A stretch of 64,000 nt of DNA from Halorientalis sp. LT38 (lineage in GTDB: Archaea > Halobacteriota > Halobacteria > Halobacteriales > Haloarculaceae), in the NCBI RefSeq assembly GCF_037031225.1, contig NZ_JAYEZN010000001.1, positions 186,001-250,000 of the forward strand, given 5' to 3'. Within the stretch, counting starts at the first letter, position 1. The number at the start of each line of letters is the position of its first letter. The notes under the pieces were generated by a model. It was not told the origin of the DNA, did no database searches, and saw only the letters and a program-made list of their open reading frames with translations. Positions 5,407 through 28,101 of this stretch are shown piece after piece. Position numbers and translations under genes: made by a program.

Positions 5407-5787
5407 ATGTCCGCCGACGGTGACGTCGACACGTCGCGAACCAGTGTCCGGACCTACGTGCCGGCCTACCAGAAATCCGAGTGGGAGCGAGCGGCCGACC
5501 GCATGGACATGAGTCTCAGCGAGTTCGTTCGCTCGATGGTGCAGGCCGGCCGACGCGGTTTCGAAGGCGGTCTCGACGACGAGGCTGGCGCCGAGGCCGA
5601 CCACAGCGGTGCGGACCTGGAATCCGAGGTCGTCACAGCGCTACGCGACGCCGAGTGTCTCTCGTGGGAAGAACTCGTGACGAGCGTGACCGACGACGTC
5701 GAGTCGGAGCTAGAGCGGACGCTCCAGGAGAGTCCGCGAATTCAGCACAGTCCCCGTCGCGGCGGGTACGTTCTGGAGGACGTATGA
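5407..5787 (+). CDS. DUF5805 protein, partner of tyrosine recombinase
   Basis: A 126-aa acidic protein starting MSADGDVDTSRTSVRTYVP at an ATG; an upstream TTG would add nine unlikely residues. The segment VRTYVPAYQKSEWERAADRM followed by DMSLSEFVRSMVQAGRRGF (residues 16-53) resembles a ribbon-helix-helix-like N-terminus: a basic strand, then two helices. The C-terminal half (about residues 75-125) looks like a small winged domain ending GGYVLEDV. Its stop overlaps the recombinase start by 4 bp (ATGA), so both are translated together. This is the DUF5805 layout I know from haloarchaea. A DNA-binding accessory role for the recombinase is inferred. Confidence 0.7.
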   Translation: MSADGDVDTSRTSVRTYVPAYQKSEWERAADRMDMSLSEFVRSMVQAGRRGFEGGLDDEAGAEADHSGADLESEVVTALRDAECLSWEELVTSVTDDVESELERTLQESPRIQHSPRRGGYVLEDV

Positions 5788-6821
5788 GCCAGGCACAGAC
5801 GGCAGAACGGCCGGACGATCCGGTTGCGTACTTCCTGCAGGACATCGAGTTCCAGGGCAAGTCGACCCGGACGCGCGACTCCTACGCGCGCGTGCTCCGG
5901 CAGTTCGAGCGGTACCTCACTGCGAACGACGTGGATGGCCTCGACGCCGCGTCCTACCGCGATTGCATGTCCTGGATCCACACGCTCCGGGGCGCACACG
6001 CCGAGAGTACGATCGCAACGTACGCGTCCTATCTCCACCGGTTTTACTCCTACATGGTCCAGGTCGGCGTCTTCGAGTCCAACCCGATGACCGTGGTGAT
6101 CGAGGAGATGGACGAGTCGATCCACACCGACCCCACCAGACGCGACCTCTCGATCGAGGAGATGCGGGGCTTCGTGAACACGATCGCCCACCCGCTCGAC
6201 GAAGCCATCGTGACGACGCTGCTCAAGACCGGCATGCGGTCCGGGGAGCTCTGTAATCTCGACGTCCGCGACGTGAACGTCGAGGGCCTCTCACTGGACG
6301 CCAGCGGGTTCGAGACGGTCAGACCCCAGCTCCAGGGCCGGCCGGACTCGATCTACGTCGACGACGAACCGGCGCGAGACGAGACCATCAACGGTGAACG
6401 ACGATCCGCTTCGAACAAGCGCAAGCGAGCGACCGTCGTCCCGGTCGATTCGGAGCTCAAAGCGGCGCTCGAACGCTGGCTCGCCGTGCGACCGGATCCA
6501 GCGTCCCCGGCCGAGCCGCTGTTCGTGAGCACGAGCCGCAACTGGGGTGAGCGAGTCACGATCGACACCGTCCACCACGTCGTCGCCTCCAACGCTGAAC
6601 GAATGGGCTGGTACCGGACCGGCGGCGGCGCCGACGAGAACGTCACGCCCCACTACTTCCGGCACTTCTTCACCACGCATCTCCGGGATCGGACCGGCGA
6701 CCGCGGCATCGTCAAGTACCTGCGTGGCGACGTGGCCTCGGACATCATCGACACCTACACGCACGACTGGGGCAGTAGAGTCCGAGAAACCTACGAGCGA
6801 CACATCTACTCGCTGGTCTGA
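5784..6821 (+). CDS. Site-specific tyrosine recombinase (XerC/D-like)
   Basis: A 345-aa integrase. Residues 14-105 are a SAM-like N-terminal core-binding domain (KSTRTRDSYARVLRQFERYL). The catalytic domain has Arg152 in GMRSGELCNL, candidate lysines 212-215, and the H-x-x-R block His290-Y-F-Arg293-His294. The position of the second conserved His/Trp (LGH in Xer proteins) reads LRGD, with Asp316. The likely nucleophile is Tyr325 in IDTYTH. It overlaps the DUF5805 gene by 4 bp. With no phage or plasmid genes around it and no flanking tRNA, it is either a resident chromosome-maintenance recombinase or the remnant of an element. Confidence 0.88.
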   Translation: MSQAQTAERPDDPVAYFLQDIEFQGKSTRTRDSYARVLRQFERYLTANDVDGLDAASYRDCMSWIHTLRGAHAESTIATYASYLHRFYSYMVQVGVFESNPMTVVIEEMDESIHTDPTRRDLSIEEMRGFVNTIAHPLDEAIVTTLLKTGMRSGELCNLDVRDVNVEGLSLDASGFETVRPQLQGRPDSIYVDDEPARDETINGERRSASNKRKRATVVPVDSELKAALERWLAVRPDPASPAEPLFVSTSRNWGERVTIDTVHHVVASNAERMGWYRTGGGADENVTPHYFRHFFTTHLRDRTGDRGIVKYLRGDVASDIIDTYTHDWGSRVRETYERHIYSLV

Positions 6822-8502: not shown

Positions 8503-8516
8503 TTTGGCGAACCTAA
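8503..8516. promoter_or_regulatory. Iron-box-like dyad (1 mismatch) before the GT2 gene
   Basis: The site reads TTTGG-CGAA-CCTAA, one mismatch from the TTAGG-N4-CCTAA dyad found at the iron-transport genes in this window. It lies 34 bp upstream of the GT2 start (8551) and 94 bp from the divergent ATPase start (8408). Regulation by a DtxR-type iron repressor is inferred from the core sequence only. Confidence 0.5.
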
Positions 8517-8550: not shown

Positions 8551-9261
8551 ATGAGTCAGCAGCGACACCGAGAGGACGAGGATCGGTTCACGTTCGACGA
8601 TCTGAGCGTCGTTATGGGGACCTACAACGAGGAGGAAGCGATCGGCACAGTATTAGCGGACGTCGACGACGTGACCGGGGGACGCGCCGAGGTCGTCTGC
8701 GTCGACGGCTCGGACGACCGGACGCCTGAGATCGCCCGCGACCACGGCGCCCGCGTGATCGAACAGGAGCCCCAGGGGTACGGCGTCGCGGTCAGGGAGG
8801 CACTGCTCGCGGCCGAGAACCCCGTGATCGTCACCACGGACTGCGACGACACCTACCCGATGGAGCGATTGCCCGACTTCCTCGACCGGATCAACGAGGG
8901 CTACGACGTCGTCAGCGGCGATCGACTCTACTACGGAGCGGAGACGATGCCGGCGTTCAACCGCTTCGGAAACCACGCCTTCGCGGCGCTTTCGAGCCTC
9001 CTCATGGGCGACCGCGTCCACGACACGACGACGGGGATGCGGGCCTACCGGCGCGAACTGATCGAGAAGATCGAGTGGACCGAGAACACCGGCCTCTCCG
9101 CCGAGTTGCTGATCCGACCGCTGATGCGCGAGTACGACGTCTGCGAGATTCCCATCGAGTACGGCGAACGCGCCGGCGAGACGAAACTGGATCCCATCAG
9201 CGGCGGGTACGCCATCGCGAAGTCGATCGTCACGGTCTGTCTCGAAGAGCGGTTCCGCTGA
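8551..9261 (+). CDS. GT2 glycosyltransferase, dolichyl-phosphate sugar synthase type
   Basis: A 236-aa soluble GT-A enzyme. Key parts are VVMGTYNEEEAIGTVL (first strand and loop), VCVDGSDDRT (residues 50-58), the nucleotide/metal region TDCDDTYP (96-103) and the acceptor-side block VHDTTTGMRAYRRELIEKI. The size, and the lack of C-terminal membrane helices, resemble DPM1/AglJ-like enzymes that load a hexose from a nucleotide sugar onto dolichyl phosphate. I chose ATG 8551 because the upstream in-frame stretch is Arg/Ser-rich. It faces the PMT-like transferase gene end to end, 9 bp apart, which suggests a donor-and-user pair. An iron-box-like dyad precedes it. Confidence 0.85.
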   Translation: MSQQRHREDEDRFTFDDLSVVMGTYNEEEAIGTVLADVDDVTGGRAEVVCVDGSDDRTPEIARDHGARVIEQEPQGYGVAVREALLAAENPVIVTTDCDDTYPMERLPDFLDRINEGYDVVSGDRLYYGAETMPAFNRFGNHAFAALSSLLMGDRVHDTTTGMRAYRRELIEKIEWTENTGLSAELLIRPLMREYDVCEIPIEYGERAGETKLDPISGGYAIAKSIVTVCLEERFR

Positions 9262-9270
9262 GGGCCCGCA

Positions 9271-11433
9271 TCAGGGCGACCGGGTAGCGTTTTCCGTCGA
9301 CAGATTCTGTACCAGCGAGACGCCGGTGACGTAGTCGTCCGCCCCGCGAACGTACGTCCCTTCGGTCCCGCACTCGGTGACCAGCCGACAGACGCTCGTC
9401 TTCCCGGGCCAGAGGAGACGGACCCCGTCGCTGGTCTGGGAGACCGCAACTTCCTGCCGATAGGTGAGCGTGGCGCCACCGGTCTGGGAGAAGGTGACCG
9501 TCAGCACGAGCGTCGTCGGCGCCCCGAAGCGGACCGACTCCCGATCGCTCAGTCGCGTCAGATTCTCGTCGACCACGCGTGCGCGCCCGTCGGCCACGAC
9601 CCAGTCGACGGCGACGGTCTCCGTCAGCGCGTCGACCTCGTAGGTGACGGCGTCGGTCGGTCCGGCGAGGCGGACGCTCGCGGAGATCGGATTCCGGATC
9701 CGACCCGCCTCGAGCGTCACCCGGTGGCGGTCGCCTGTCCGGTCCTCGAGCGGGGTGAGCGTCGGGTGGATCTCGTCGTTCCAGCCGTCGAACGAGGAGT
9801 CCCACTCGCCGCGGTAGGTGTAGCGGTAGGGCTGGCGGTCTGGGTAGGTATCCAGCACCCGGAAGTTCGCTTCGGCGTCGCGGTCGAGCGCGTACACGAC
9901 CGGCCCGTCGAAGCCGGGGTCGTTGCGCAGCGACTGGAAGGGGTGGTTCATCCAGTCGCCGTACGGCGTGGGGACGAACACCAGGGCGTTCTCGAACGAT
10001 TCGTTCTCGATCGGTTCGTACGCCTGCTCGTATCGCTCGGTGTAGGGCTGGCTGCGGTCGAGCGCCGGTCCGAGCGCCGCCGCCTGGGCCAGTCCGGCCA
10101 CGGCGAGCAAGACGACCAGTGCGAGGGCGACGGAGCCACGAGCGGCTCGCCGGGAGGCTCGGGCCCGGACGAAACCGTAGAGCCGCCGGGCGAGCAGGAG
10201 TACTCCCGCCGCGCCGAAGGCCGAGAGCGGGACCAGGAGGTCGAAGTGGTAGTACGGCCCGAGTATCATTATCAGCCCGTCGGTCGGGTCCTCGAGCGCG
10301 GCGAGGACGTTCAGGTTCCCCCAGAAGAAGACGTTCCCGACGGGTACGGAGACGAAGAGGCCGGCCAGCAGCGCCTGGGCTCCGCGGTCCGAGAGGCCGT
10401 CGGGTGCGACGCGGCGCGGGAATGATTCGAGGACCGATCGAACGAACGCCCCGACGCCGAGCAGGGCGGCGAGGACGCCCACCGGTGGCGCGACGGACCA
10501 GTTCGTCACCAGTTGCCAGAGGACGCGGGCGTTGGCTTCGAGCGCGAGTTGGGGGGTGTACTCCCGTTCGTAGCCGAGGATGCTGCGGGTGCCGAAGCCG
10601 GGGCCGTCCCGGGGCGCGAACGCCTCGTAGGGGAAGACAAGCGGATCGCCGGTCACGACCCAGTTGTAGCCGAGCGCGACGCCGACGAACGCGAGGCCGA
10701 GGCCCGCGACGATCCCGTTGCGTTCGAGCACCGACCGCGCGACGCCGAGCAGGCGACGGGTCCCGCCCCCGTCGTCGCCGGATCGCTGCCGCCACGACGC
10801 CCCGAGCGTGAGCAGCGCGTGGGCGATGAACGGTAGTGCGAACAGCACGGCGGTGAACGGCCGGGCGAAGAAGGCCAATCCCACCGCGACGCCGGCGAGG
10901 ACGGCGTAGCGACGACGGGACCCGACGTCGTCGGCGCGACAGGCGCGCAGGTACCCGTAGGCGAACGCGAGATTCAGCGCGGTCGTCGGCGCGTAGGGGA
11001 GAAAGACCGCCGAGTCGAGCAGGAAGAGCGGCGACGCGACGAACAGGGAGACGGCGACGAGTCCTGTGCGTTCGTCGAAGGCCTCCCTCGTGACCAGACC
11101 CAGGAGGCCGGCGTTTAGCGTCGCGACTACCAGCAGGGCCAGTCGGGGGATCCCGACGAGCAGCCCGAGTGCGAAGATTCCGGCGGGGACGGGCGAGTAC
11201 TTGGGATAGAGACGCTCGCCGTCCTGGACGAAGAACCAGGGATGGACGGACTCGGGGACCGGGCTCTCCATCTGGACCTGCCCGTCGAGCAGGAGTTCGG
11301 CCTGCTGGAGGTAGACGCCCTCGTCGTGGTTCGAGGAGTGGTGCGGAAAGACGGTCACCGCGATGGCGAACGTGAGCAGGCCGGCGAGGACCGCCAGGCA
11401 GACGAGCGCGACCGTGAAGCGCCGGTTATCCAT
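9271..11433 (-). CDS. PMT/ArnT-like GT-C membrane glycosyltransferase
   Basis: A 720-aa membrane protein. After TM1 comes the loop SSNHDEGVYLQQAELLLDGQ (from about residue 27), whose Asp-Glu pair is the catalytic hallmark of GT-C transferases of the PMT/ArnT class. Around eleven further hydrophobic segments follow to about residue 455. The C-terminal 260 residues form an extracytoplasmic beta-rich domain (DUF7846-like). Such enzymes transfer sugars from polyprenyl phosphates to proteins or lipids outside the membrane. Its ATG lies inside the end of fbpC (8-bp overlap, ATGGATAA), so it is very probably the fourth gene of the fbpABC operon. A GTG 42 bp upstream is a less likely start. Confidence 0.85.
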   Translation of the reverse strand: MDNRRFTVALVCLAVLAGLLTFAIAVTVFPHHSSNHDEGVYLQQAELLLDGQVQMESPVPESVHPWFFVQDGERLYPKYSPVPAGIFALGLLVGIPRLALLVVATLNAGLLGLVTREAFDERTGLVAVSLFVASPLFLLDSAVFLPYAPTTALNLAFAYGYLRACRADDVGSRRRYAVLAGVAVGLAFFARPFTAVLFALPFIAHALLTLGASWRQRSGDDGGGTRRLLGVARSVLERNGIVAGLGLAFVGVALGYNWVVTGDPLVFPYEAFAPRDGPGFGTRSILGYEREYTPQLALEANARVLWQLVTNWSVAPPVGVLAALLGVGAFVRSVLESFPRRVAPDGLSDRGAQALLAGLFVSVPVGNVFFWGNLNVLAALEDPTDGLIMILGPYYHFDLLVPLSAFGAAGVLLLARRLYGFVRARASRRAARGSVALALVVLLAVAGLAQAAALGPALDRSQPYTERYEQAYEPIENESFENALVFVPTPYGDWMNHPFQSLRNDPGFDGPVVYALDRDAEANFRVLDTYPDRQPYRYTYRGEWDSSFDGWNDEIHPTLTPLEDRTGDRHRVTLEAGRIRNPISASVRLAGPTDAVTYEVDALTETVAVDWVVADGRARVVDENLTRLSDRESVRFGAPTTLVLTVTFSQTGGATLTYRQEVAVSQTSDGVRLLWPGKTSVCRLVTECGTEGTYVRGADDYVTGVSLVQNLSTENATRSP

Positions 11434-12595
11434 CGTCGGCGGGCTGCCCGCCGTCTGCCACGCGCCGCGCGCCACGGGGGAACCAGGCGAGTTCGTGGTC
11501 GGCGGCCAGTTCCACTCGAATGGGTTCGTCCAGGGGCACCTCGTCGGCGTGGTTGTGCATGCAGCCGAGCACGTCGCCGCTGTCGAGTTCGATCCGATAG
11601 AGGATCGTCGGCCCGAGGAAGCGCCGGTTCACGACGGTCCCGTTCGCCCCGTGCCCGTCCACCGGGCGGACCCGCACGTCGTCGGGACGGACCAGCACGT
11701 CGATGTCCGACCCGTCGTAGGCCTCCGCGAGCCCGTTGATCCGCTCGCGAGGGATCGCCCCGACGCCGGTCTCGACGGTGTCGCCGTCGACGTGGCCCGA
11801 GAGGAAACTCGCGTGGCCGAGGAAGCTCGCGACGAATCTGGATTCGGGCCGCTGGAAGACGTCCTCCGGCCGCCCGACCTGTTCGATCTGCCCGGAACGC
11901 ATCACCGCGACCCGGTCGCTGATGGACATGGCCTCCTCCTGGTCGTGGGTGACCGAGATGGCCGTCACGCCGGTCTCCTTGAGGATGCGGCGGACCTCCT
12001 GTCGCATCTCGACCCTGAGGTCGACGTCGAGGTTGGAGAACGGCTCGTCGAGCAGGAGGACGGAGGGCTCGGGGGCGAGCGAACGGGCCAGCGCGACCCG
12101 CTGTTGCTGTCCGCCCGATAGCTCCTCGGGGTACTGGTCGCGGTGTTCGGTCAGGCCCACCAGTTCCAGCAATTCGTCGACACGGCGGTCGCGCGCGTCG
12201 GCGTCGAGATCCTTCAGCCCGAACGCGACGTTCTCGGCCGCGGTCTTGTGCGGGAAGAGGGCGAACTCCTGGAAGACGACGCCCACGTCGCGCTCCTCGG
12301 GCGGCACCGCGTTCTCGGCGGTCGCGACCGCCTCGTCGCGCAGCCGGACGGTCCCGCCGTCGAGGCGTTCGAGGCCGGCGACGAGGCGCAGCGTGGTCGT
12401 CTTTCCGCAGCCCGAGGGCCCCAGCAGGGTCAGCAGCTCGCCGTCGCGGACCCGGAGGTCCAGGTCCTCGATGACGCGCGTCCCACCGAAGACCTTCTCG
12501 ACCCCGTCCAGCTGAAGGACGGTGTCGTCGTCGGCCGCGGCGTCGGTCTCTGCGTCTGTGCGATCGGTCGAGGACGTAAGTGAGCTATTCGACAT
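11426..12595 (-). CDS. fbpC: Fe(III) ABC transporter ATPase (FbpC-like)
   Basis: A 389-aa protein. After a low-complexity acidic N-terminus (residues 1-25) come Walker A GPSGCGKTT (about 59-67), the Q-loop VVFQEFALFPHK, the ABC signature ELSGGQQQRVALARSLA, Walker B VLLLDEPFSNLD and the switch His in SVTHDQEEAM. A C-terminal TOBE-like regulatory domain covers about 270-375. This is the FbpC/PotA importer type. It overlaps the permease gene by 11 bp and the PMT-like gene by 8 bp. With the FbpA-like binding protein upstream, ferric iron is the likely substrate. Confidence 0.92.
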   Translation of the reverse strand: MSNSSLTSSTDRTDAETDAAADDDTVLQLDGVEKVFGGTRVIEDLDLRVRDGELLTLLGPSGCGKTTTLRLVAGLERLDGGTVRLRDEAVATAENAVPPEERDVGVVFQEFALFPHKTAAENVAFGLKDLDADARDRRVDELLELVGLTEHRDQYPEELSGGQQQRVALARSLAPEPSVLLLDEPFSNLDVDLRVEMRQEVRRILKETGVTAISVTHDQEEAMSISDRVAVMRSGQIEQVGRPEDVFQRPESRFVASFLGHASFLSGHVDGDTVETGVGAIPRERINGLAEAYDGSDIDVLVRPDDVRVRPVDGHGANGTVVNRRFLGPTILYRIELDSGDVLGCMHNHADEVPLDEPIRVELAADHELAWFPRGARRVADGGQPADDG

Positions 12596-14222
12596 CGTAT
12601 CCCTCCACTTTCAGCAGGACGAACATCGAGAGGCCGGACACCACGAGCAGGACGATCGCGGGGATGGCGGCCAGCCCGAACTCGGCGGAGCGCTCGGCCC
12701 GCCAGACGGCGGTCACGAGCGTGTTGAACCCCGGCGGGCGGAGCAACAGCGTCGCCGGGAGTTCCTTCATCGTCGTCAGGAAGACCAGGGCCGCGCCAGC
12801 TAGCAGGCTCGGCGCGACCAGCGGCAGCGTCACGGACCGGAACGCCTGCCCGGGCGACTGCCCGAGCGTCCGTGCCGCCTCCGGCAGCGACCGGCTTACC
12901 TGCAGGAAGCCCGCCCTCGTCGAGCCGACCGCCTGTGGAATGAACCGAACGACGTACGCGAAGATCAACAGTGGGAAGGCGAGCAGCCCCTGCCGGTAGA
13001 GGACGCCGCCGTACTGCGCGCCCAGGAAGACGAGCGCGAGGCCGATGACGACGCCCGGGACCGCGTACCCGACGTAGGTGGCCTGTTCGACGACCGACGT
13101 CAGCCGGGAGGAGCGGTGTGCGGCGACGTACGCGACCGGGAGCGCGAACAGGGTGGCGAGCAGCGCGGCCGCACCCGACACGCCCACGGAGTTGAGACTC
13201 ATGCTCACCAGATCGATGTTGTACGCACCGGTCCCGGTACCACGAACCAGCCACATCCGGAGGATTCCGACGGGGACCGCGAGCGAGAGCGCCGGTAACG
13301 CCAGACAGGCGAGTGCGGCGGGCCAGCGCCACTTCCCGAGGTGCAGGGACGGGTCGCTCCCGCCGACGTAGCCGCCCTCCGTCCCGATGTTGTCCCCGCC
13401 CCGGACCCGCGACTCGATGGCGAGGATGAACACGGTCAGGACGACGAGTTTCAAGGAGAGCAGGGCGGCCATGTCCGGCCCGTTGCCGAAGGAGTGGAAC
13501 TCGACGTAGATCACCCGGGTGAACACGTCGTAACGCATGATCTGTGGCGTCCCGAAATCGGAGAGGGCGTAGAGGGCGACCAGCAGCGCGCCGGCGGCGA
13601 CGGCGGGCTTGATCTGCGGGACGGTGACGCGCTTGAACGCCTCCCACCGGTCGTGTCGGAGCGTCCGGGCGGCGTCGAACAGCGTCGTGTCGATCGACTT
13701 CAGGGCGGCCCTGGTCGTCAGGAAGACGTACGGATACGTGTACAGCGTGATGATCATGACGGTGCCCGTCAGGCCGTAGATGCTGGGGAGTTGCTCGACG
13801 CCGAGGGGGGCGAGCAGTTCCTGGAACTCCCCGCGCGGGCCGAACGCCGAGACGAACGTGATCGCACCGATGTAACTGGGGACGACGAGCGGCAGGGCGA
13901 GCAGGACCGTGAGGGGGCGTCGGAGGGGCAGGTCCGTGCGGACCGTGAGGTAGGCGAGCGGGACGCCGATCAGGATCGAGATGGCCGTCACGGCGGTCAT
14001 CATCACGATACTGTTGACGACGACCTGGATCGTCCGGGGCTGGGTGACGATCTCGAGCCCGCTCGCGAACCCGATGCGGTTCGAGGCGATGAAGAGCCAG
14101 GTCAGCGGCAGGAGTACGAGCACGGCCACGGCGCCGGCGAGCAGCGTCAGGCCGACCGAGCGTCCGGACCGGCCGCTGGTGACGCCCTCGTCCGCCGTCG
14201 CCGCGTCCGTGCCCGTTACCAT
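12585..14222 (-). CDS. fbpB: Fe(III) ABC transporter permease (FbpB-like, fused two halves)
   Basis: A 545-aa permease with about 12 membrane helices arranged as two homologous halves. Each half carries an EAA-like loop for contact with the ATPase: LFDAARTLRHDRWEAFKRVTVP in the first, LPEAARTLGQSPGQAFRSVTLP in the second. That internal duplication is typical of FbpB/AfuB iron permeases. ATG 14222 leaves a 16-bp gap to fbpA; a GTG at 14249 would overlap fbpA by 11 bp and is possible. The 3' end overlaps fbpC by 11 bp. Confidence 0.92.
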   Translation of the reverse strand: MVTGTDAATADEGVTSGRSGRSVGLTLLAGAVAVLVLLPLTWLFIASNRIGFASGLEIVTQPRTIQVVVNSIVMMTAVTAISILIGVPLAYLTVRTDLPLRRPLTVLLALPLVVPSYIGAITFVSAFGPRGEFQELLAPLGVEQLPSIYGLTGTVMIITLYTYPYVFLTTRAALKSIDTTLFDAARTLRHDRWEAFKRVTVPQIKPAVAAGALLVALYALSDFGTPQIMRYDVFTRVIYVEFHSFGNGPDMAALLSLKLVVLTVFILAIESRVRGGDNIGTEGGYVGGSDPSLHLGKWRWPAALACLALPALSLAVPVGILRMWLVRGTGTGAYNIDLVSMSLNSVGVSGAAALLATLFALPVAYVAAHRSSRLTSVVEQATYVGYAVPGVVIGLALVFLGAQYGGVLYRQGLLAFPLLIFAYVVRFIPQAVGSTRAGFLQVSRSLPEAARTLGQSPGQAFRSVTLPLVAPSLLAGAALVFLTTMKELPATLLLRPPGFNTLVTAVWRAERSAEFGLAAIPAIVLLVVSGLSMFVLLKVEGYDVE

Positions 14223-14238
14223 GGCAGATAGATCGCGT

Positions 14239-15405
14239 TCAGAGGACACCCACCTCCTCCAGCAGATCCTCAGACTGGGCCTGGTCGGCCAGTTGGGAGA
14301 GGTCGATGTCCGGAACTGACAGCTCCGTTACCGAGGGCAATCGGCCGACGGGGTTAACACCGTCGACTAGCGGGTACTCGAAGGTCCTGATGGCGAAGTA
14401 CTCCTGGGCCTCCGCCGACAGGAGGTGCCGGACGAACAGGTCCGCCAGTTCGGGGTTCCCCGAGGACTGGAGGCGGGCCGCGCCGGCGACGTTGAAGATG
14501 GTCCCCGCGTCGTTGCGCGTGAACGCGGTTCCGAGGGGCTCGTTGGGGTTGACCGCCAGTTCGCGCTGGATGTAGTAGTGATTGGTCAGCCCCATCGCGA
14601 GTTCGCCGTCGGCGACGGCGCGGGCGACCTGGGCCTCGTCGCTGTACTCTTGTGTGTTCAGGTCCTGCATCCCCTGCAGCCACTGGCGCGTCGGGTCCTC
14701 GCCCTCGATGATCCGCATCGCAGTGATGAACGCCTTGAACGACCCGTAGGTCGGCGCCCAGCCGATCTCTCCCTCGTACTGGCTGAGGTCCGGGAAGGAC
14801 ATGATGCTCTCGGGGACGTCCGACGCCGAGAGTCGGTCCGTGTTGTACGGGACCGTTCGCGCACGGCCGGAGGTCCCGATCCACTCGTCGTCGCTATCGC
14901 GGTAGGCCTCGTCGACGAGCGAGGCCGTCTCGGAGGTGAGCGCCTGCGTCGCGTCGATGCTCTTGACCTGGCCGAGCGTCCCGGCGTTGACGGTGAAGAA
15001 GACGTCCGCCGGGCTGTTTCCGCCTTCCTCCCGGATGGTCGCCGCCAGGTCCGCCGCAGGAGCGAAGTTCGTGTCGATCGTCAGGTTCGGGTACCGCGTC
15101 TCCTGGAGGTAATCGAAGAGGTCCTTCACCAGGCTCTCGCCACGACCGGAGTAGACCGTGATCTCACCGCTCAGGTCGGGCATGTCACCCATCGAGGTGC
15201 CACCGGGTTCAGGCCGGTCGCCGAACTCACCGGGCCCCGATCCGATCCACTCGGGCGAGACGCCCGTGTCCTCCGCGTCGGCCGTCGCCTGATCGTCGCT
15301 CAACAGTCCACACCCCGCGACGGCGGCGGTCCCCGCCACCGCACCGCTCTGGAGGAGCCGCCGCCGCGATACGAGCCGTCCGTCGGTGTCGCGTGTGTCC
15401 TTCAT
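14239..15405 (-). CDS. fbpA: Fe(III)-binding lipoprotein (FbpA-like)
   Basis: A 388-aa extracellular solute-binding protein. The N-terminus has a Tat signal with twin arginines (SRRRLLQ, residues 13-19) and a lipobox AVAGC with Cys32, so it is exported folded and lipid-anchored. The mature part opens with EITVYSGRGESLVKDLF, the start typical of ferric-iron-binding proteins (ITVYSGR), and includes ADVFFTVNAGTL and GWAPTYGSFKAFI. A later tyrosine pair (NHYYIQRE) matches the usual Fe-ligand YY site. It is the first gene of fbpA-fbpB-fbpC-PMT and has an iron-box dyad 8 bp before its ATG. Confidence 0.93.
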   Translation of the reverse strand: MKDTRDTDGRLVSRRRLLQSGAVAGTAAVAGCGLLSDDQATADAEDTGVSPEWIGSGPGEFGDRPEPGGTSMGDMPDLSGEITVYSGRGESLVKDLFDYLQETRYPNLTIDTNFAPAADLAATIREEGGNSPADVFFTVNAGTLGQVKSIDATQALTSETASLVDEAYRDSDDEWIGTSGRARTVPYNTDRLSASDVPESIMSFPDLSQYEGEIGWAPTYGSFKAFITAMRIIEGEDPTRQWLQGMQDLNTQEYSDEAQVARAVADGELAMGLTNHYYIQRELAVNPNEPLGTAFTRNDAGTIFNVAGAARLQSSGNPELADLFVRHLLSAEAQEYFAIRTFEYPLVDGVNPVGRLPSVTELSVPDIDLSQLADQAQSEDLLEEVGVL

Positions 15406-15413
15406 ATATGGAT

Positions 15414-15427
15414 TTAGGTCTGCCTAA
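15414..15427. promoter_or_regulatory. Iron-box dyad at fbpA promoter
   Basis: TTAGG-TCTG-CCTAA, perfect half sites, lies 8 bp upstream of the fbpA ATG. A TATA-like element (gtataa on the minus strand, 15433-15438) sits just upstream, so the dyad overlaps the expected transcription start. This is where a repressor would block initiation. The core equals the bacterial DtxR box; haloarchaea carry DtxR-family regulators (Idr, SirR). Confidence 0.8.
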
Positions 15428-15446: not shown

Positions 15447-16610
15447 TCAGTCGTCCGCCGTCGCGGGGACGGGGTCCGTGACGGTGCCGGGCTGGAGCTC
15501 CTCGAGACAGGCGAGCCAGTCGCGCATGTACTCGCCGCAGAAGTTCAGGAAGGCGTCGTTCTCGTAGTCGAAGTCGCCCTCGGCGAGCGCGTCGGCCATC
15601 GCGGCCATCACGCCGGCGTAGGTGTCGGCGTCGCCGCCGACCTCGTCGACGATCTCCCAGACGTGTTCGTTCAGTTCCAGCCCGGGGACCTCGTTGTTCA
15701 GGTCGCCGAACGTCGAGCGGGGTGCCTTGTTGTGCTCGCAGAGCGGGTAGCCGTTGATAATGCGCTTGTCGAGCACGTCGCAGGCGCGCTTGAGGAACAG
15801 GCCGCTCCAGATGTCGTCGAACCGGCCAACGTCCCACTCGTTGTCGTCCATCGGGAGCTGGTAGAACGCGGGGACGACCTCCCGGCGGAAGGCCAGGTTC
15901 ATCGAACAGACGGTGAGGTAGTCGCCGCGCTCGGCGACGAAGTTGCCGTCGTAGTCGTCCGTCGAGGTTCGGGTCTGGGCCTGGCCCTGCAGGTCGCCGT
16001 CCATCAGGATGCGGACCGCGTCGAGGTCGGGGACGTTCGTCCAGAGCCCCTGCGAAGCGACCACGTCGTCGACCTCGGCCTCGCCGATCTCGATCTCCTC
16101 GTCCATCGCGCTGTAGGGATAGCCACGGGGATAGAGTCCGTGTTCGTCGACGTTCTGGTAGAGGACGTTCACCCAGGACTCGTCGGAGCCGACCGACTCG
16201 ACGGTGCCCTCGAAGGCGAGATTCTCGAAGTGGCTACCGAAGAAGTCGAAGTCCGGGTGGGGGAGCGTGTCGTCGTCGATGAACAGACCGTACTCGAAGT
16301 CGTTGGCCCACAGGTAGAGGAGGCCGAAACTCGTCTGGGCGTGGCTGGCCGCCGGAATGAGGTCTGCGTACTCGGAGAGGCCCTGGCGTTCGAACCAGGC
16401 CTCGCGGTCGCTGCCGTCGAAGACGCGGCCGGACACACCCTCTTCGTCCAGCATCGCCCGCATCTCCTCGGTGTCACAGAAGTCCTCCGTGACCAGCGTC
16501 ACGTGGAGGCGGTCGAGGTCGAACCCGTGGTCGCGTGCGTTCTCGAAGTACGCCCGCATGCACTCGAACTCCCGAATCGTCGGCACGATTACGCAAACGT
16601 CCTCGGTCAT
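15447..16610 (-). CDS. RGP / UDP-arabinopyranose mutase-like protein (GT75)
   Basis: A 387-aa protein resembling plant reversibly glycosylated polypeptides, annotated in archaea as alpha-1,4-glucan-protein synthase. The N-terminus VCVIVPTIREFECMRAYFE and the triple aspartate FIDDDTLPHP (Asp112-114, nearly the same position as the essential DDD of plant UAM) are clear. A later basic/Trp-rich block (WDVGRFDDIWSGLFLKRACD) also fits the family. Plant members convert UDP-arabinopyranose to the furanose form and self-glycosylate; other members may act as transferases. The gene lies just upstream of fbpA on the same strand, with its own perfect iron box 17 bp before its ATG, and the fbpA promoter follows its stop. 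Confidence 0.78.
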   Translation of the reverse strand: MTEDVCVIVPTIREFECMRAYFENARDHGFDLDRLHVTLVTEDFCDTEEMRAMLDEEGVSGRVFDGSDREAWFERQGLSEYADLIPAASHAQTSFGLLYLWANDFEYGLFIDDDTLPHPDFDFFGSHFENLAFEGTVESVGSDESWVNVLYQNVDEHGLYPRGYPYSAMDEEIEIGEAEVDDVVASQGLWTNVPDLDAVRILMDGDLQGQAQTRTSTDDYDGNFVAERGDYLTVCSMNLAFRREVVPAFYQLPMDDNEWDVGRFDDIWSGLFLKRACDVLDKRIINGYPLCEHNKAPRSTFGDLNNEVPGLELNEHVWEIVDEVGGDADTYAGVMAAMADALAEGDFDYENDAFLNFCGEYMRDWLACLEELQPGTVTDPVPATADD

Positions 16611-16627
16611 TGCCTTGTTCCATCTCT

Positions 16628-16641
16628 TTAGGCCGCCCTAA
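16628..16641. promoter_or_regulatory. Iron-box dyad at the RGP gene
   Basis: TTAGG-CCGC-CCTAA, perfect half sites, 17 bp upstream of the RGP start. The same 14-mer occurs at 21045 before the siderophore ATPase gene, which argues strongly that the same regulator binds both. Confidence 0.78.
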
Positions 16642-16844: not shown

Positions 16845-17585
16845 ATGCTCGAAAATCAGACCTGTGTGGTAACCGGTGCATCGAGGGGTATCGGCCGCGG
16901 TATCGCCGAAGAGTTGGGCCGCCACGGCGCGAACGTCGTCGTCAACTACCGGTCCTCGGAGGCGGCGGCCCACGAGGTCGCCGACGCGGTGGACGAGGCG
17001 GGCGGCAACGGCGTCCCGCTCCAGGCCGACGTCTCCGACGCCGACGAAGTCGACGCGATGGCCGACCGCGTTCGGGAACTCTACGGCCCGGCGGACGTGC
17101 TCGTCAACAACGCCGGGATCACGATCGACAAGAAGTTCGAGAACATGACCAAGTCGGACTGGGAGACGGTCATGGACGTCAACCTGGGCGGCGTCTTCAA
17201 CGCGACCAACGCCTTCTTCGAAGACCTGAAACGCGCCGACGACGGCCGCCTGATCAACATCTCGTCGGTCGTCGGCCAGCAGGGCAACTACGGGCAGGCC
17301 AACTACGCCGCGACCAAGTCCGGCCTGTTCGGCTTCACGCGCACGCTCGCGCTCGAACTGGCGTCCTCCGGCTCCACCGCCAACTGCGTCGCCCCGGGGT
17401 TCGTCGAGACCGACATGCTCGACGAGGTGCCAGAGCGCGTCCAGCAGAAGATCCTCGACCGCATCCCGCTCAGCCGCTTCGCGACGGTCGACGACGTCGC
17501 CGGCATCGTCCGCTTCCTGGCCGGTCCGGACTCCGGGTACATGACCGGACAGGTCCTGGCGGTCAACGGCGGGATGGAGTGGTGA
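16845..17585 (+). CDS. fabG: 3-oxoacyl reductase, FabG/PhaB type SDR
   Basis: A 246-aa short-chain dehydrogenase with the cofactor motif GASRGIG (residues 11-17), NNAG at 88-91 and the catalytic triad Ser140, Tyr154, Lys158. The C-terminal MTGQVLAVNGGMEW is typical of FabG/PhaB. The RS after the second strand (NYRSS) suggests NADPH preference. Haloarchaea lack fatty-acid synthesis as a main lipid route, and FabG-like proteins there can serve as acetoacetyl-CoA reductase for polyhydroxyalkanoate. One base separates it from pccB, so it is in that operon. Confidence 0.9.
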   Translation: MLENQTCVVTGASRGIGRGIAEELGRHGANVVVNYRSSEAAAHEVADAVDEAGGNGVPLQADVSDADEVDAMADRVRELYGPADVLVNNAGITIDKKFENMTKSDWETVMDVNLGGVFNATNAFFEDLKRADDGRLINISSVVGQQGNYGQANYAATKSGLFGFTRTLALELASSGSTANCVAPGFVETDMLDEVPERVQQKILDRIPLSRFATVDDVAGIVRFLAGPDSGYMTGQVLAVNGGMEW

Positions 17586-17586
17586 G

Positions 17587-19167
17587 ATGAGTCAGCAAGA
17601 GGAACCCGATTCCGAGCAAGACACGCGATCGGCGATCGAAGAACTCCGCGAGCGTCGCCGCGAGGCCGAACTCGGCGGCGGCGAGGCGCGCATCGAGCGC
17701 CAGCACGAGAAGGGAAAGATGACCGCCCGCGAGCGCGTCGACTACCTCCTCGACGACGGGACCTTCCGCGAGGTCGACGCGTTCGTCGAACACCGCTCGC
17801 AGGCCTTCGGCATGGACGAGAAGCAGTTTCCCGGGGACGCGGTCGTCACCGGCTACGGCGAGGTCGACGGGCGGAAGATCTTCGTCTTCGCCCACGATTT
17901 CACCGTCCTCGGCGGCTCCGTCGGCGAGACCGTCGCCGACAAGATCTGCAAGGTGATGGACAAGGCCATCGAGAACGGCGTGCCCGTCGTCGGCCTGAAC
18001 GACTCCGGCGGCGCGCGCATCCAGGAGGGGGTCGATTCCCTCGTGGGCTTCGCCAAGATCTTCAACCGAAACACCGAGGCCTCCGGCCTGATTCCGCAGA
18101 TCTCGGCGATCATGGGCCCCTGTGCCGGCGGCGCGACCTACTCGCCCGCGCTGACGGACTTCACGTTCATGGTCCAGGACACCAGCCACATGTTCATCAC
18201 CGGCCCGGACGTCATCGAGACGGTCACCGGAGAGCAGGTCTCGAAGGCCGAACTCGGCGGCGCGAAGACCCACGCCACCAAGTCCGGCGTCGCGCACTTC
18301 GCCGAGCAGTCCGAGGAGGCGGCCCTCGACGACATCCGCAAACTCCTCTCCTACCTCCCGCAGAACAACATGGCCGACCCGCCGCGGGTCCAGCCCTGGG
18401 ACGACCCCACCCGGCAGTGTGACGAACTCGTCGACATCGTCCCCGAGGAACCGCGCAAGCCCTACGACATGAACGACGTGATCGACCGGATCGTGGACGA
18501 GGACTCGTTCTTCGAGGTCCACGACGGCTTCGCGCGCAACGTCGTCACCGGGTTCGGTCGGATGGACGGCCGGGTCGTCGGCGTCGTCGCCAACCAGCCC
18601 CGCGTCTCGGCCGGGACGCTCGACATCGACGCCTCCGAGAAAGCCGCCCGGTTCGTCCGCTTCTGTGACTCCTTCAACGTCCCCATCGTCACCCTCGTCG
18701 ACGTCCCCGGGTTCATGCCCGGTACCGACCAGGAGCACAACGGTATCATCCGCCGGGGCGCGAAACTCATCTACGCGTACGCGGAGGCGACGGTGCCACT
18801 GCTCTCGGTCGTCGTCCGGAAGGCCTACGGCGGGGCCTACATCGTCATGTCCTCGAAGTTCCTTGGCAGCGACGTCAATTACGCCTGGCCCGGCGCGGAG
18901 ATGGCCGTCCTCGGCCCGCGCGGCGCGGTCAACATCCTCTACCGGAAGGAGTTGGCAGAAGCCGACGACCCCGACGCCCGCCGGCAGGAACTGATAGACG
19001 AGTTCCGCGAGGAGTTCGCCCACCCCTACGGGCCCGCGAAACGCGGGTACCTCGACGACGTGATCGAGCCCCAGCAGACGCGCAAACGACTGATCGACGA
19101 CCTCGAACTGCTCGAGCGCAAGCGCGAGGACACGCCCCCCAAGGACCACGGCAACATCCCTCTATGA
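17587..19167 (+). CDS. pccB: Acyl-CoA (propionyl-CoA) carboxylase carboxyltransferase subunit
   Basis: A 526-aa beta subunit with both carboxyltransferase halves. N-terminal half: GLNDSGGARIQEGVDSL and the oxyanion region IMGPCAGGATYSPAL. C-terminal half: VDVPGFMPGTDQEHNGIIRRGAKL and VVVRKAYGGAYIVMSSK. Length and motifs match PccB/AccB of the propionyl/methylmalonyl type. It needs a biotinylated alpha subunit (BC-BCCP), which is not in this window. It sits between fabG and a pccX-like gene with minimal spacing, and the biotin genes lie about 16 kb away in the same window. Confidence 0.93.
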   Translation: MSQQEEPDSEQDTRSAIEELRERRREAELGGGEARIERQHEKGKMTARERVDYLLDDGTFREVDAFVEHRSQAFGMDEKQFPGDAVVTGYGEVDGRKIFVFAHDFTVLGGSVGETVADKICKVMDKAIENGVPVVGLNDSGGARIQEGVDSLVGFAKIFNRNTEASGLIPQISAIMGPCAGGATYSPALTDFTFMVQDTSHMFITGPDVIETVTGEQVSKAELGGAKTHATKSGVAHFAEQSEEAALDDIRKLLSYLPQNNMADPPRVQPWDDPTRQCDELVDIVPEEPRKPYDMNDVIDRIVDEDSFFEVHDGFARNVVTGFGRMDGRVVGVVANQPRVSAGTLDIDASEKAARFVRFCDSFNVPIVTLVDVPGFMPGTDQEHNGIIRRGAKLIYAYAEATVPLLSVVVRKAYGGAYIVMSSKFLGSDVNYAWPGAEMAVLGPRGAVNILYRKELAEADDPDARRQELIDEFREEFAHPYGPAKRGYLDDVIEPQQTRKRLIDDLELLERKREDTPPKDHGNIPL

Positions 19168-21044: not shown

Positions 21045-21058
21045 TTAGGCCGCCCTAA
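21045..21058. promoter_or_regulatory. Iron-box dyad before siderophore ATPase gene
   Basis: TTAGG-CCGC-CCTAA, perfect half sites and identical to the box at 16628. It lies 11 bp before an ATG (21070) that opens an 18-codon reading frame, and 57 bp before the GTG of the ATPase gene. Confidence 0.78.
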
Positions 21059-21069
21059 ACCTGCTGGCA

Positions 21070-21126
21070 ATGAACGAGGCGGTCGGTCGGACACGGCACG
21101 GCGAGGTGACCCGAGGTGGGCGCTAA
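21070..21126 (+). CDS. Possible 18-aa leader ORF overlapping fepC
   Basis: An ATG 11 bp after the iron box opens a reading frame of 18 codons (MNEAVGRTRHGEVTRGGR) that ends 11 bp inside the ATPase gene. In the other iron genes the box is followed within 4-17 bp by the real ATG, so this ATG is where the ATPase would be expected to start. It may be a leader peptide coupled to fepC, or a sign of a one-base indel that splits the true N-terminus. Confidence 0.3.
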   Translation: MNEAVGRTRHGEVTRGGR

Positions 21127-21973
21127 CACCGACGCCGGCCAGGTCGATCGGTCGCGAGAGATCCGATCGTCGGTGGACGATGCGGCCGCGGCCGACAGCC
21201 ACCTGTTCGCCGAGGATCTCGAGGTCGGGTATTCGAGCGGCGAGGAACCGGTCGTGACCTGCGACCGGATCGACCTGCCGCGGGGGGAGATCACAGCCCT
21301 CGTCGGCCCCAACGGGAGCGGGAAGAGCACGCTGCTGAAGTCCCTCTCGAACCACCTCGACCCGTCGGCCGGATCGGTCGTGCTCGACGGGGCGTCGATC
21401 CACGAATACGACCAGAAGGAACTCGCACAGGAACTGGGCTTCCTCTCCCAGGAGCACGCCTCGCCCGAGAGCATCAGCGTCGAGGAGCTGATATACCACG
21501 GTCGCTACCCGCACCGCGGGTTCTTCGAGTCCGTCTCCGAGGACGACCGGGCGGCGGTCGAGCGCGCCATCGACCTCACCGGGATCGATCACCTGCGCGA
21601 CCAGCACGTCGGGAGCCTCAGCGGCGGCCAGAAACAGCTCGTCTGGATCGCGATGGTCCTCGCCCAGGAGACGGACGTCCTCCTGCTCGACGAGCCGACG
21701 ACGTTCCTGGACCTGCACCACCAGTTGCAGGTTCTGGAAGTGATCCGGTCGCTGAACGAGCGGGAGGACGTGACCGTCGGCGTCGTCCTCCACGACATCG
21801 AACAGGCCGCCCGCTTCGCGGACTACGTCGTCGCGCTGGAGGACGGGAGCGTCTACGACTGGGGCCCGCCGCGGGAGGTCGTCACCGAGGAACTGCTCGC
21901 GGACGTGTTCGACGTCGACGCCGCCGTGACCACCGACGCCGACGTCCGGATCCTCCCGAAACAACCCCTCTGA
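21116..21973 (+). CDS. fepC: Siderophore/cobalamin-type ABC transporter ATPase (FepC-like)
   Basis: A 285-aa ATPase with Walker A GPNGSGKST (about residues 63-71), Q-loop FLSQEHASPE, signature SLSGGQKQLVWIAMVLAQ, Walker B VLLLDEPTTFLDLHHQ and switch HDIEQAARFADYV. The TTFLDLHHQ after Walker B is characteristic of FepC/FhuC/BtuD type ATPases. Its only in-frame start is the GTG at 21116, just after an in-frame stop; see the leader frame at 21070. It is followed by an iron-box-controlled permease gene and binding-protein gene on the same strand. Confidence 0.9.
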   Translation: MGANTDAGQVDRSREIRSSVDDAAAADSHLFAEDLEVGYSSGEEPVVTCDRIDLPRGEITALVGPNGSGKSTLLKSLSNHLDPSAGSVVLDGASIHEYDQKELAQELGFLSQEHASPESISVEELIYHGRYPHRGFFESVSEDDRAAVERAIDLTGIDHLRDQHVGSLSGGQKQLVWIAMVLAQETDVLLLDEPTTFLDLHHQLQVLEVIRSLNEREDVTVGVVLHDIEQAARFADYVVALEDGSVYDWGPPREVVTEELLADVFDVDAAVTTDADVRILPKQPL

Positions 21974-27919: not shown

Positions 27920-27933
27920 TTAGGCCCGCCTAA
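27920..27933. promoter_or_regulatory. Iron-box dyad before small gene at 27943
   Basis: TTAGG-CCCG-CCTAA, perfect half sites, 9 bp before the ATG of a 52-aa protein. It belongs to a gene rather than to the opposite-strand protein at 27814, whose start is 106 bp away. Confidence 0.75.
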
Positions 27934-27942
27934 GCTCCGGTA

Positions 27943-28101
27943 ATGAGTCACGCGCCGGATACCGTCGACGAGGTGGCGGCAACCGAAGACGTCCCGGGCA
28001 TCAAACACCACAGGGCGACCGACGAGCGGACCGTCTTCACGGAAGAGGGCAACACCGACGGCTGGATCGCGACCGATCTCACCGTCGAGTGCGAAGAATA
28101 G
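27943..28101 (+). CDS. 52-aa acidic haloarchaeal protein with iron boxes
   Basis: A 52-aa protein, MSHAPDTVDEVAATEDVPG..., containing KHHRATDERTVFTEEGN and a C-terminal WIATDLTVEC. I do not recognise a family with certainty, though the ERTVFTEEGN-DGWIATD pattern is reminiscent of the small conserved haloarchaeal DUF7331 type. Its promoter has two iron-box dyads, and it is convergent with dpsA (27 bp between stops), so it is probably iron-starvation induced. Too short for enzymatic function; a small regulator or partner protein is more likely. Confidence 0.65.
   Translation: MSHAPDTVDEVAATEDVPGIKHHRATDERTVFTEEGNTDGWIATDLTVECEE

Follow-up and report, generated by a model that had tools for sequence, protein, structure and literature searches.

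Why should a haloarchaeal gene for a protein of the RGP type, known from the UDP-arabinopyranose mutases of plants, stand under an iron box? An earlier note raised this question for the window, the whole stretch of 64,000 nucleotides of Halorientalis sp. LT38 analysed here, in which all coordinates are counted. Comparison across haloarchaeal genomes places the gene in what is predicted to be a class-wide iron-controlled glycosylation module, whose component enzymes all belong to known kinds. The earlier interpretation is correct in outline and too narrow: it recognised the iron-boxed rgp, and missed its obligate partners, a GT-C glycosyltransferase and a dolichyl-phosphate sugar synthase, as well as the ferric transporter, with which an odd regulated gene becomes a pathway.

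The gene rgp (15447..16610, minus strand, ATG start) encodes a GT75/RGP-type protein of 387 aa, a predicted NDP-pyranose/furanose mutase. The assignment as an RGP homologue with a DDD motif at residues 112-114 was confirmed, the match to PF03214 (Pfam RGP) scoring 64.5 bits (cut-off 23.8). Its iron box TTAGGCCGCCCTAA at 16628..16641 is an exact match that lies 17 bp upstream of the rgp ATG, and the same 14-mer is, as had been claimed, repeated identically at 21045-21058 upstream of a FecE-like siderophore ATPase gene. The term "perfect iron box" holds for an exact and conserved site; the perfect inverted repeat within the 14-mer is TTAGG-N4-CCTAA only, not its whole length. Apart from these two sites, both correctly located, the inventory of the note lacked an exact box at 15414..15427, between rgp and the gene of a substrate-binding lipoprotein (SBP), which belongs to the ferric transporter/GT-C operon, and the box TTTGGCGAACCTAA at 8503..8516, a 9/10 match before the GT2 gene. 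Other exact boxes in the window, at 21045, 22010 and 23165, precede siderophore ATPase, permease and binding-protein genes. With up to two mismatches, the window contains 19 matches to TTAGGCNNNCCTAA compared to 2.24 expected, a number reached in no shuffle, and a chance origin of the motif in the window is excluded. Exact TTAGGN4CCTAA sites number only 10 in the whole 3.58-Mb genome, where the reversed control pattern does not occur at all; one exact site elsewhere in the genome adjoins a SufC-like ATPase (L119), identified from sequence.

Two short frames were observed beside boxes. The exact box at 27920 precedes an ORF of 52 aa (27920-28101 region) adjoining a ferritin-like (Dps-like) gene. 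Between the box at 21045 and the siderophore ATPase, which starts with GTG at 21116, a short ATG frame begins at 21070 and overlaps the ATPase start (21045-21130); it may be a leader peptide or a mis-called start.

The second exact box leads into the transporter genes. The first of these encodes the SBP, an FbpA-type ferric-binding lipoprotein (14239..15405, minus strand) with a Tat/lipobox signal read from the sequence. It matches solved ferric-binding proteins (best 7w3w at 2e-82), and its NHYY motif with the Tyr pair is unchanged throughout the SBP alignment. By Pfam domains, a permease with two BPD_transp_1 domains (12585..14249, minus strand) and an ATPase with ABC_tran and TOBE_2 (11426..12595, minus strand) complete the transporter, followed by the GT-C membrane glycosyltransferase of 720 aa with PMT_2 and DUF7846 (9271..11433, minus strand), whose start overlaps the ATPase stop. 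The fold of the GT-C model (pLDDT 82.5) matches those of AglB/OST, ArnT, Pmt4 and ALG9 with E below 1e-3. Convergent to GT-C, the GT2 gene (8551..9261, plus strand) encodes a predicted dolichyl-phosphate hexose transferase of 236 aa, which scores 409 bits against the NF041391 equivalog (cut-off 375) and has dolichol-phosphate mannose synthase (DPMS) and ArnC as nearest solved relatives.

The order rgp, SBP, permease, ATPase, GT-C with a convergent GT2 recurs in the orthologous loci. In Halorubrum, part of Natrinema and others, permease and ATPase are absent from between SBP and GT-C. A permease orthologue was found in 18/18 genomes tested, beside or away from rgp and usually a few kilobases past GT2; in G017 it lies near a detached GT2, 64 kb from rgp. 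An integrase gene at 5481-6821 led us to consider a recent mobile insertion, which we reject since conservation of the locus extends over the class. In loci of the Halorubrum and Natrinema type, a UPF0104/PF03706 membrane protein is encoded upstream of rgp (L083:4815-5945, plus strand, and 25 similar), with an own box in 26/26 cases; possibly, it is a flippase for the dolichyl-phosphate sugar. We regard it as accessory and not as a core member, strong orthologues occurring in only part of the RGP-positive genomes. Matches of about 370 bits elsewhere are mostly longer frames of 600 aa or more, resembling AglD fusions.

RGP, DUF7846 and NF041391 were searched for in the same set of 292 Halobacteria genomes, with NF041391 positives counted over the cut-off. 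All three occur in 232/292 genomes and none in 60/292, the identity of the three 232-genome sets having been judged by comparing the listings by eye. The 60 negative genomes are scattered, and 12 genera (g4, g11, g17, g21, g27, g34, g35, g37, g39, g55, g59, g66) hold both states, pointing towards a three-gene set that was probably lost or gained jointly many times. One genome (G206) contains each of the three genes twice, as two sets. The co-occurrence goes beyond mere linkage, since GT2 is retained and keeps its box in 20/20 genomes selected because it lies elsewhere than rgp.

From these data we propose, with somewhat more confidence than doubt, an iron-repressed glycosylation pathway of Halobacteria around the ferric-iron ABC transporter, running from RGP via GT2 to GT-C. 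An iron-loaded DtxR-family repressor would occupy TTAGGN4CCTAA at the core promoters of rgp, the transporter/GT-C operon and GT2, and would be released from all three under iron scarcity. RGP would then convert an NDP-hexopyranose to the NDP-hexofuranose, FAD-free and via Arg162, using a divalent metal that DDD and His293 would bind. GT2 would load this sugar onto dolichyl phosphate inside the membrane, and GT-C would move it from dolichyl phosphate to an acceptor outside the cell, probably a cell-surface or iron-uptake protein. Comparative genomics gives good support to the predicted iron regulation and to the linkage of the three genes, showing the conserved boxes, the strict co-occurrence, the kinds of protein and the active-site residues. 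Binding of the repressor, the response to iron, the activity as a mutase, the sequence of the steps and the nature of sugar and acceptor are inferred.

One candidate for the acceptor is found in the SBP itself. After the lipobox, a linker of the form GSG...R...GT[S/P] is conserved (residues about 54-80), and its Thr is present in 67/73 rgp-linked SBPs; none of the eight closest SBPs from RGP-less genomes showed it. The hint towards this Thr is weak because of the six exceptions and the shared ancestry. That iron starvation induces a cell-surface furanosylation via mutase, dolichyl-phosphate-furanose and GT-C, possibly of the FbpA-type lipoprotein itself, is a tentative suggestion that we consider doubtful; no precedent for such a route was found in this literature search. 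Alternatively, the product could be an exported glycan, a glycosylated iron chelator or an exopolysaccharide, instead of a protein modification. In Haloarcula hispanica, the dolichyl-phosphate-type GT2 AepG works for exopolysaccharide instead of S-layer glycosylation (PMC9943897), and the fold of GT-C finds matches among protein as well as lipid and glycan transferases. The set, however, contains a single GT-C beside the mutase, and neither a polymerase nor an exporter is conserved alongside it. We take this possibility seriously, and still judge it doubtful.

The proposed route to a furanose depends on the chemistry of RGP. The reading as RGP/UAM-like stands with regard to the GT75/RGP type and a near-complete mutase active site, but not with UDP-arabinose and a plant-type cell wall as specifics. 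Nor is plant UAM the closest kin: the bacterial GDP-sugar mutase MtdL is nearer to the rgp product with 84.8 vs 28.7 bits (phmmer, 5e-23 compared to 6e-6 for the UDP-arabinopyranose mutase). MtdL is also the top PDB fold match of the AlphaFold model (E 1e-16, TM about 0.7), the model itself having a moderate pLDDT of 68. The best orthologues, 84-87% identical, place the window close to Halorientalis, and within the phylum sample its RGP branch was found in Halobacteria only. Among the characterised GT75 members are plant and two bacterial proteins, and the archaeal entries are uncharacterised (PMC9937993).

Catalytic residues were taken from MtdL (PMC9937993) and mapped onto an alignment of 79 RGP orthologues. 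D109-111 of MtdL correspond to D112-114, R159 to R162, D195 to D195, S228 to S236, R257 to R263, D260 to D266 and H287 to H293, all of which are unchanged across the 79 sequences. Q229 is replaced by Met and R289 by Lys, both shared with the plant-like sequence L002. The sugar-contacting position D87 of MtdL (S91 in plants) is His90 in 79/79 orthologues and matches neither known branch. This position already differs between these branches, with Asp in MtdL and Ser in plants, and substitutions at it kill MtdL and AtRGP2 (PMC9937993). Residues for nucleotide preference are mixed, S89 being MtdL-like and P10 plant-like. As judged by alignment, the predicted MtdL/UAM catalytic residues are all conserved except for one variable position, and from these residues we infer mutase chemistry. 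FAD-type UDP-galactopyranose mutase (UGM, PF03275) was not found in 45 RGP-positive genomes, which leaves the RGP-like protein as the sole candidate for an NDP-sugar ring mutase found there. The plant-like protein mentioned above, L002:1492-2472 (minus strand), occurs in the haloarchaeon G010 alongside the iron-boxed RGP; it is very near the plant RGP/UAM profile (452 bits), and its gene is flanked by other glycosyltransferase-like genes.

His90 in place of the catalytic Asp or Ser could also mean that the RGP-like protein is a glycosyltransferase or a self-glycosylated carrier within an iron-controlled pathway in which the sugar stays a pyranose, and the plant members AtRGP5, OsUAM2 and HvUAM4 indeed show no activity (PMC9937993). 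Yet AtRGP5 partly lacks the catalytic residues in question (PMC9937993), whereas every other one of them, including the autoglycosylated Arg, the Mn-binding His and the phosphate-binding Arg, is unchanged in the 79 orthologues. We therefore regard a role other than that of a mutase as unlikely.

For the control by iron, the box before rgp was followed through orthologous loci. Among the 80 nearest orthologues in named genomes it is present in 76, with 70 boxes at 10/10 and six at 9/10, and box start and rgp ATG are separated by 25-37 nt in nearly all of them. In 20 further loci, chosen for spread from other haloarchaeal genera and families, 19 have the box; only L188 lacks it, an additional copy of rgp that is not accompanied by the other genes. 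In the window, the promoter reads GGTATTTTAGGGCGGCCTAAAGAGATGGAACAAGGCAATG on the rgp strand. A TATA-like stretch some 30 nt from the rgp ATG is overlapped by the box, so that a repressor bound there would keep transcription factors from loading or obstruct the start site of a leaderless transcript. DtxR-family regulators are encoded in the same genome (PF01325 matches of 70 and 62 bits), and with a conserved iron box in its promoter, control of rgp by iron, presumably through a regulator of this family, is very likely. It is not universal, as the box is degenerate in L051, L072 and L188, where no SBP lies beside rgp, and decayed or absent in the two MAG loci L104 and L106. Loss of the link to the transporter may result in loss of the iron control of rgp.

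These degenerate boxes, together with the position of the sugar genes next to the transporter, would also fit a box that serves the ferric transporter only, with rgp and the other sugar genes as bystanders. Against this, rgp, SBP and GT2 have separate boxes. The own box of the SBP gene is exact in 70/78 orthologous loci, and that of GT2 is found in 24/26 linked loci as well as in all 20 detached genes, one of which (in G017) does lie beside the transporter permease. GT-C has no box of its own (0/75) because it sits within the operon. Mere neighbourhood is thus a very improbable explanation. Control neighbours in the same loci have no box (PCC 0/26, GalE 0/13), and GalE, a neighbour in these 13 loci, was rejected as a module member. 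Control of the divergent short-chain dehydrogenase (SDR)/carboxyl transferase genes (16845-19167) instead of rgp by the 16628 box, which does lie in the shared intergenic region, can practically be dismissed, as the box is separated from the start of rgp by 17 bp and from that of SDR by about 200 bp, stays with rgp where the divergent gene differs or is missing, and has a counterpart at SDR in 5/27 cases and at PCC in none of the 26.

The preferred reading, an iron-repressed pathway from RGP via GT2 to GT-C, is testable in the genetically tractable Haloferax volcanii. This species contains RGP and DUF7846, and one control genome, very probably H. volcanii, passes the GT2 cut-off. RGP, GT-C and GT2 were not recognised among the more than 10-fold induced proteins named in the accessible part of the H. 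volcanii iron-starvation paper, the locus tags there being unmatched to our genes. The same part reports HVO_1859 (UPF0104) and HVO_0655 (GalE) as more than 10-fold up without iron in Haloferax. We did not use either as support, their orthology to genes of the rgp locus being unestablished; for HVO_1859 it is doubtful because strong UPF0104 orthologues beside rgp were seen in other genera only. If the proposal is true, iron limitation is tied to cell-surface sugar chemistry in archaea. A job would be given to a GT75 branch for which we know of no characterised archaeal member, as well as to a domain of unknown function, DUF7846, and a dolichyl-phosphate hexose synthase, and furanose could be made without FAD in organisms in which UDP-galactopyranose mutase was not found.

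A link between iron and glycosylation in haloarchaea was not found in the literature searched, and the primary regulon papers may already list these genes as members. The iron regulators of H. volcanii and the FerR regulon signal have been described (PMC11349517). Haloarchaeal DtxR-family iron regulons (FerR signal; Idr, SirR, TroR) share the same box at siderophore, ferric transporter and SufC-like genes; in contrast to these regulons as compared, glycosylation genes would be members here, which the 2015 FerR prediction may already list. With FbpABC-type ferric transporters the operon has in common the ferric-binding SBP, the fused two-domain permease and the ATPase with TOBE, but it differs in containing a GT-C glycosyltransferase and in having rgp ahead of it. 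The GT75 mutases MtdL/Hyg20 of actinobacteria and RGP/UAM of plants show the same fold, DDD motif, autoglycosylated Arg and Mn-binding His, as well as common phosphate-binding Arg and sugar-binding Asp residues. Unlike them, the haloarchaeal branch has His at the position of MtdL D87 and plant S91, and its gene is accompanied by an iron box and by a dolichyl-phosphate sugar synthase and a GT-C as partners. Finally, loading by a GT2 and transfer outside by a GT-C would be the same in the bacterial polyprenyl-phosphate aminoarabinose route (ArnC-ArnT) and in the dolichyl-phosphate-mannose route of Haloferax Agl (AglD/AglS), whereas the haloarchaeal set described here would place a GT75 mutase before GT2, carries the iron box and bears DUF7846 on its GT-C.
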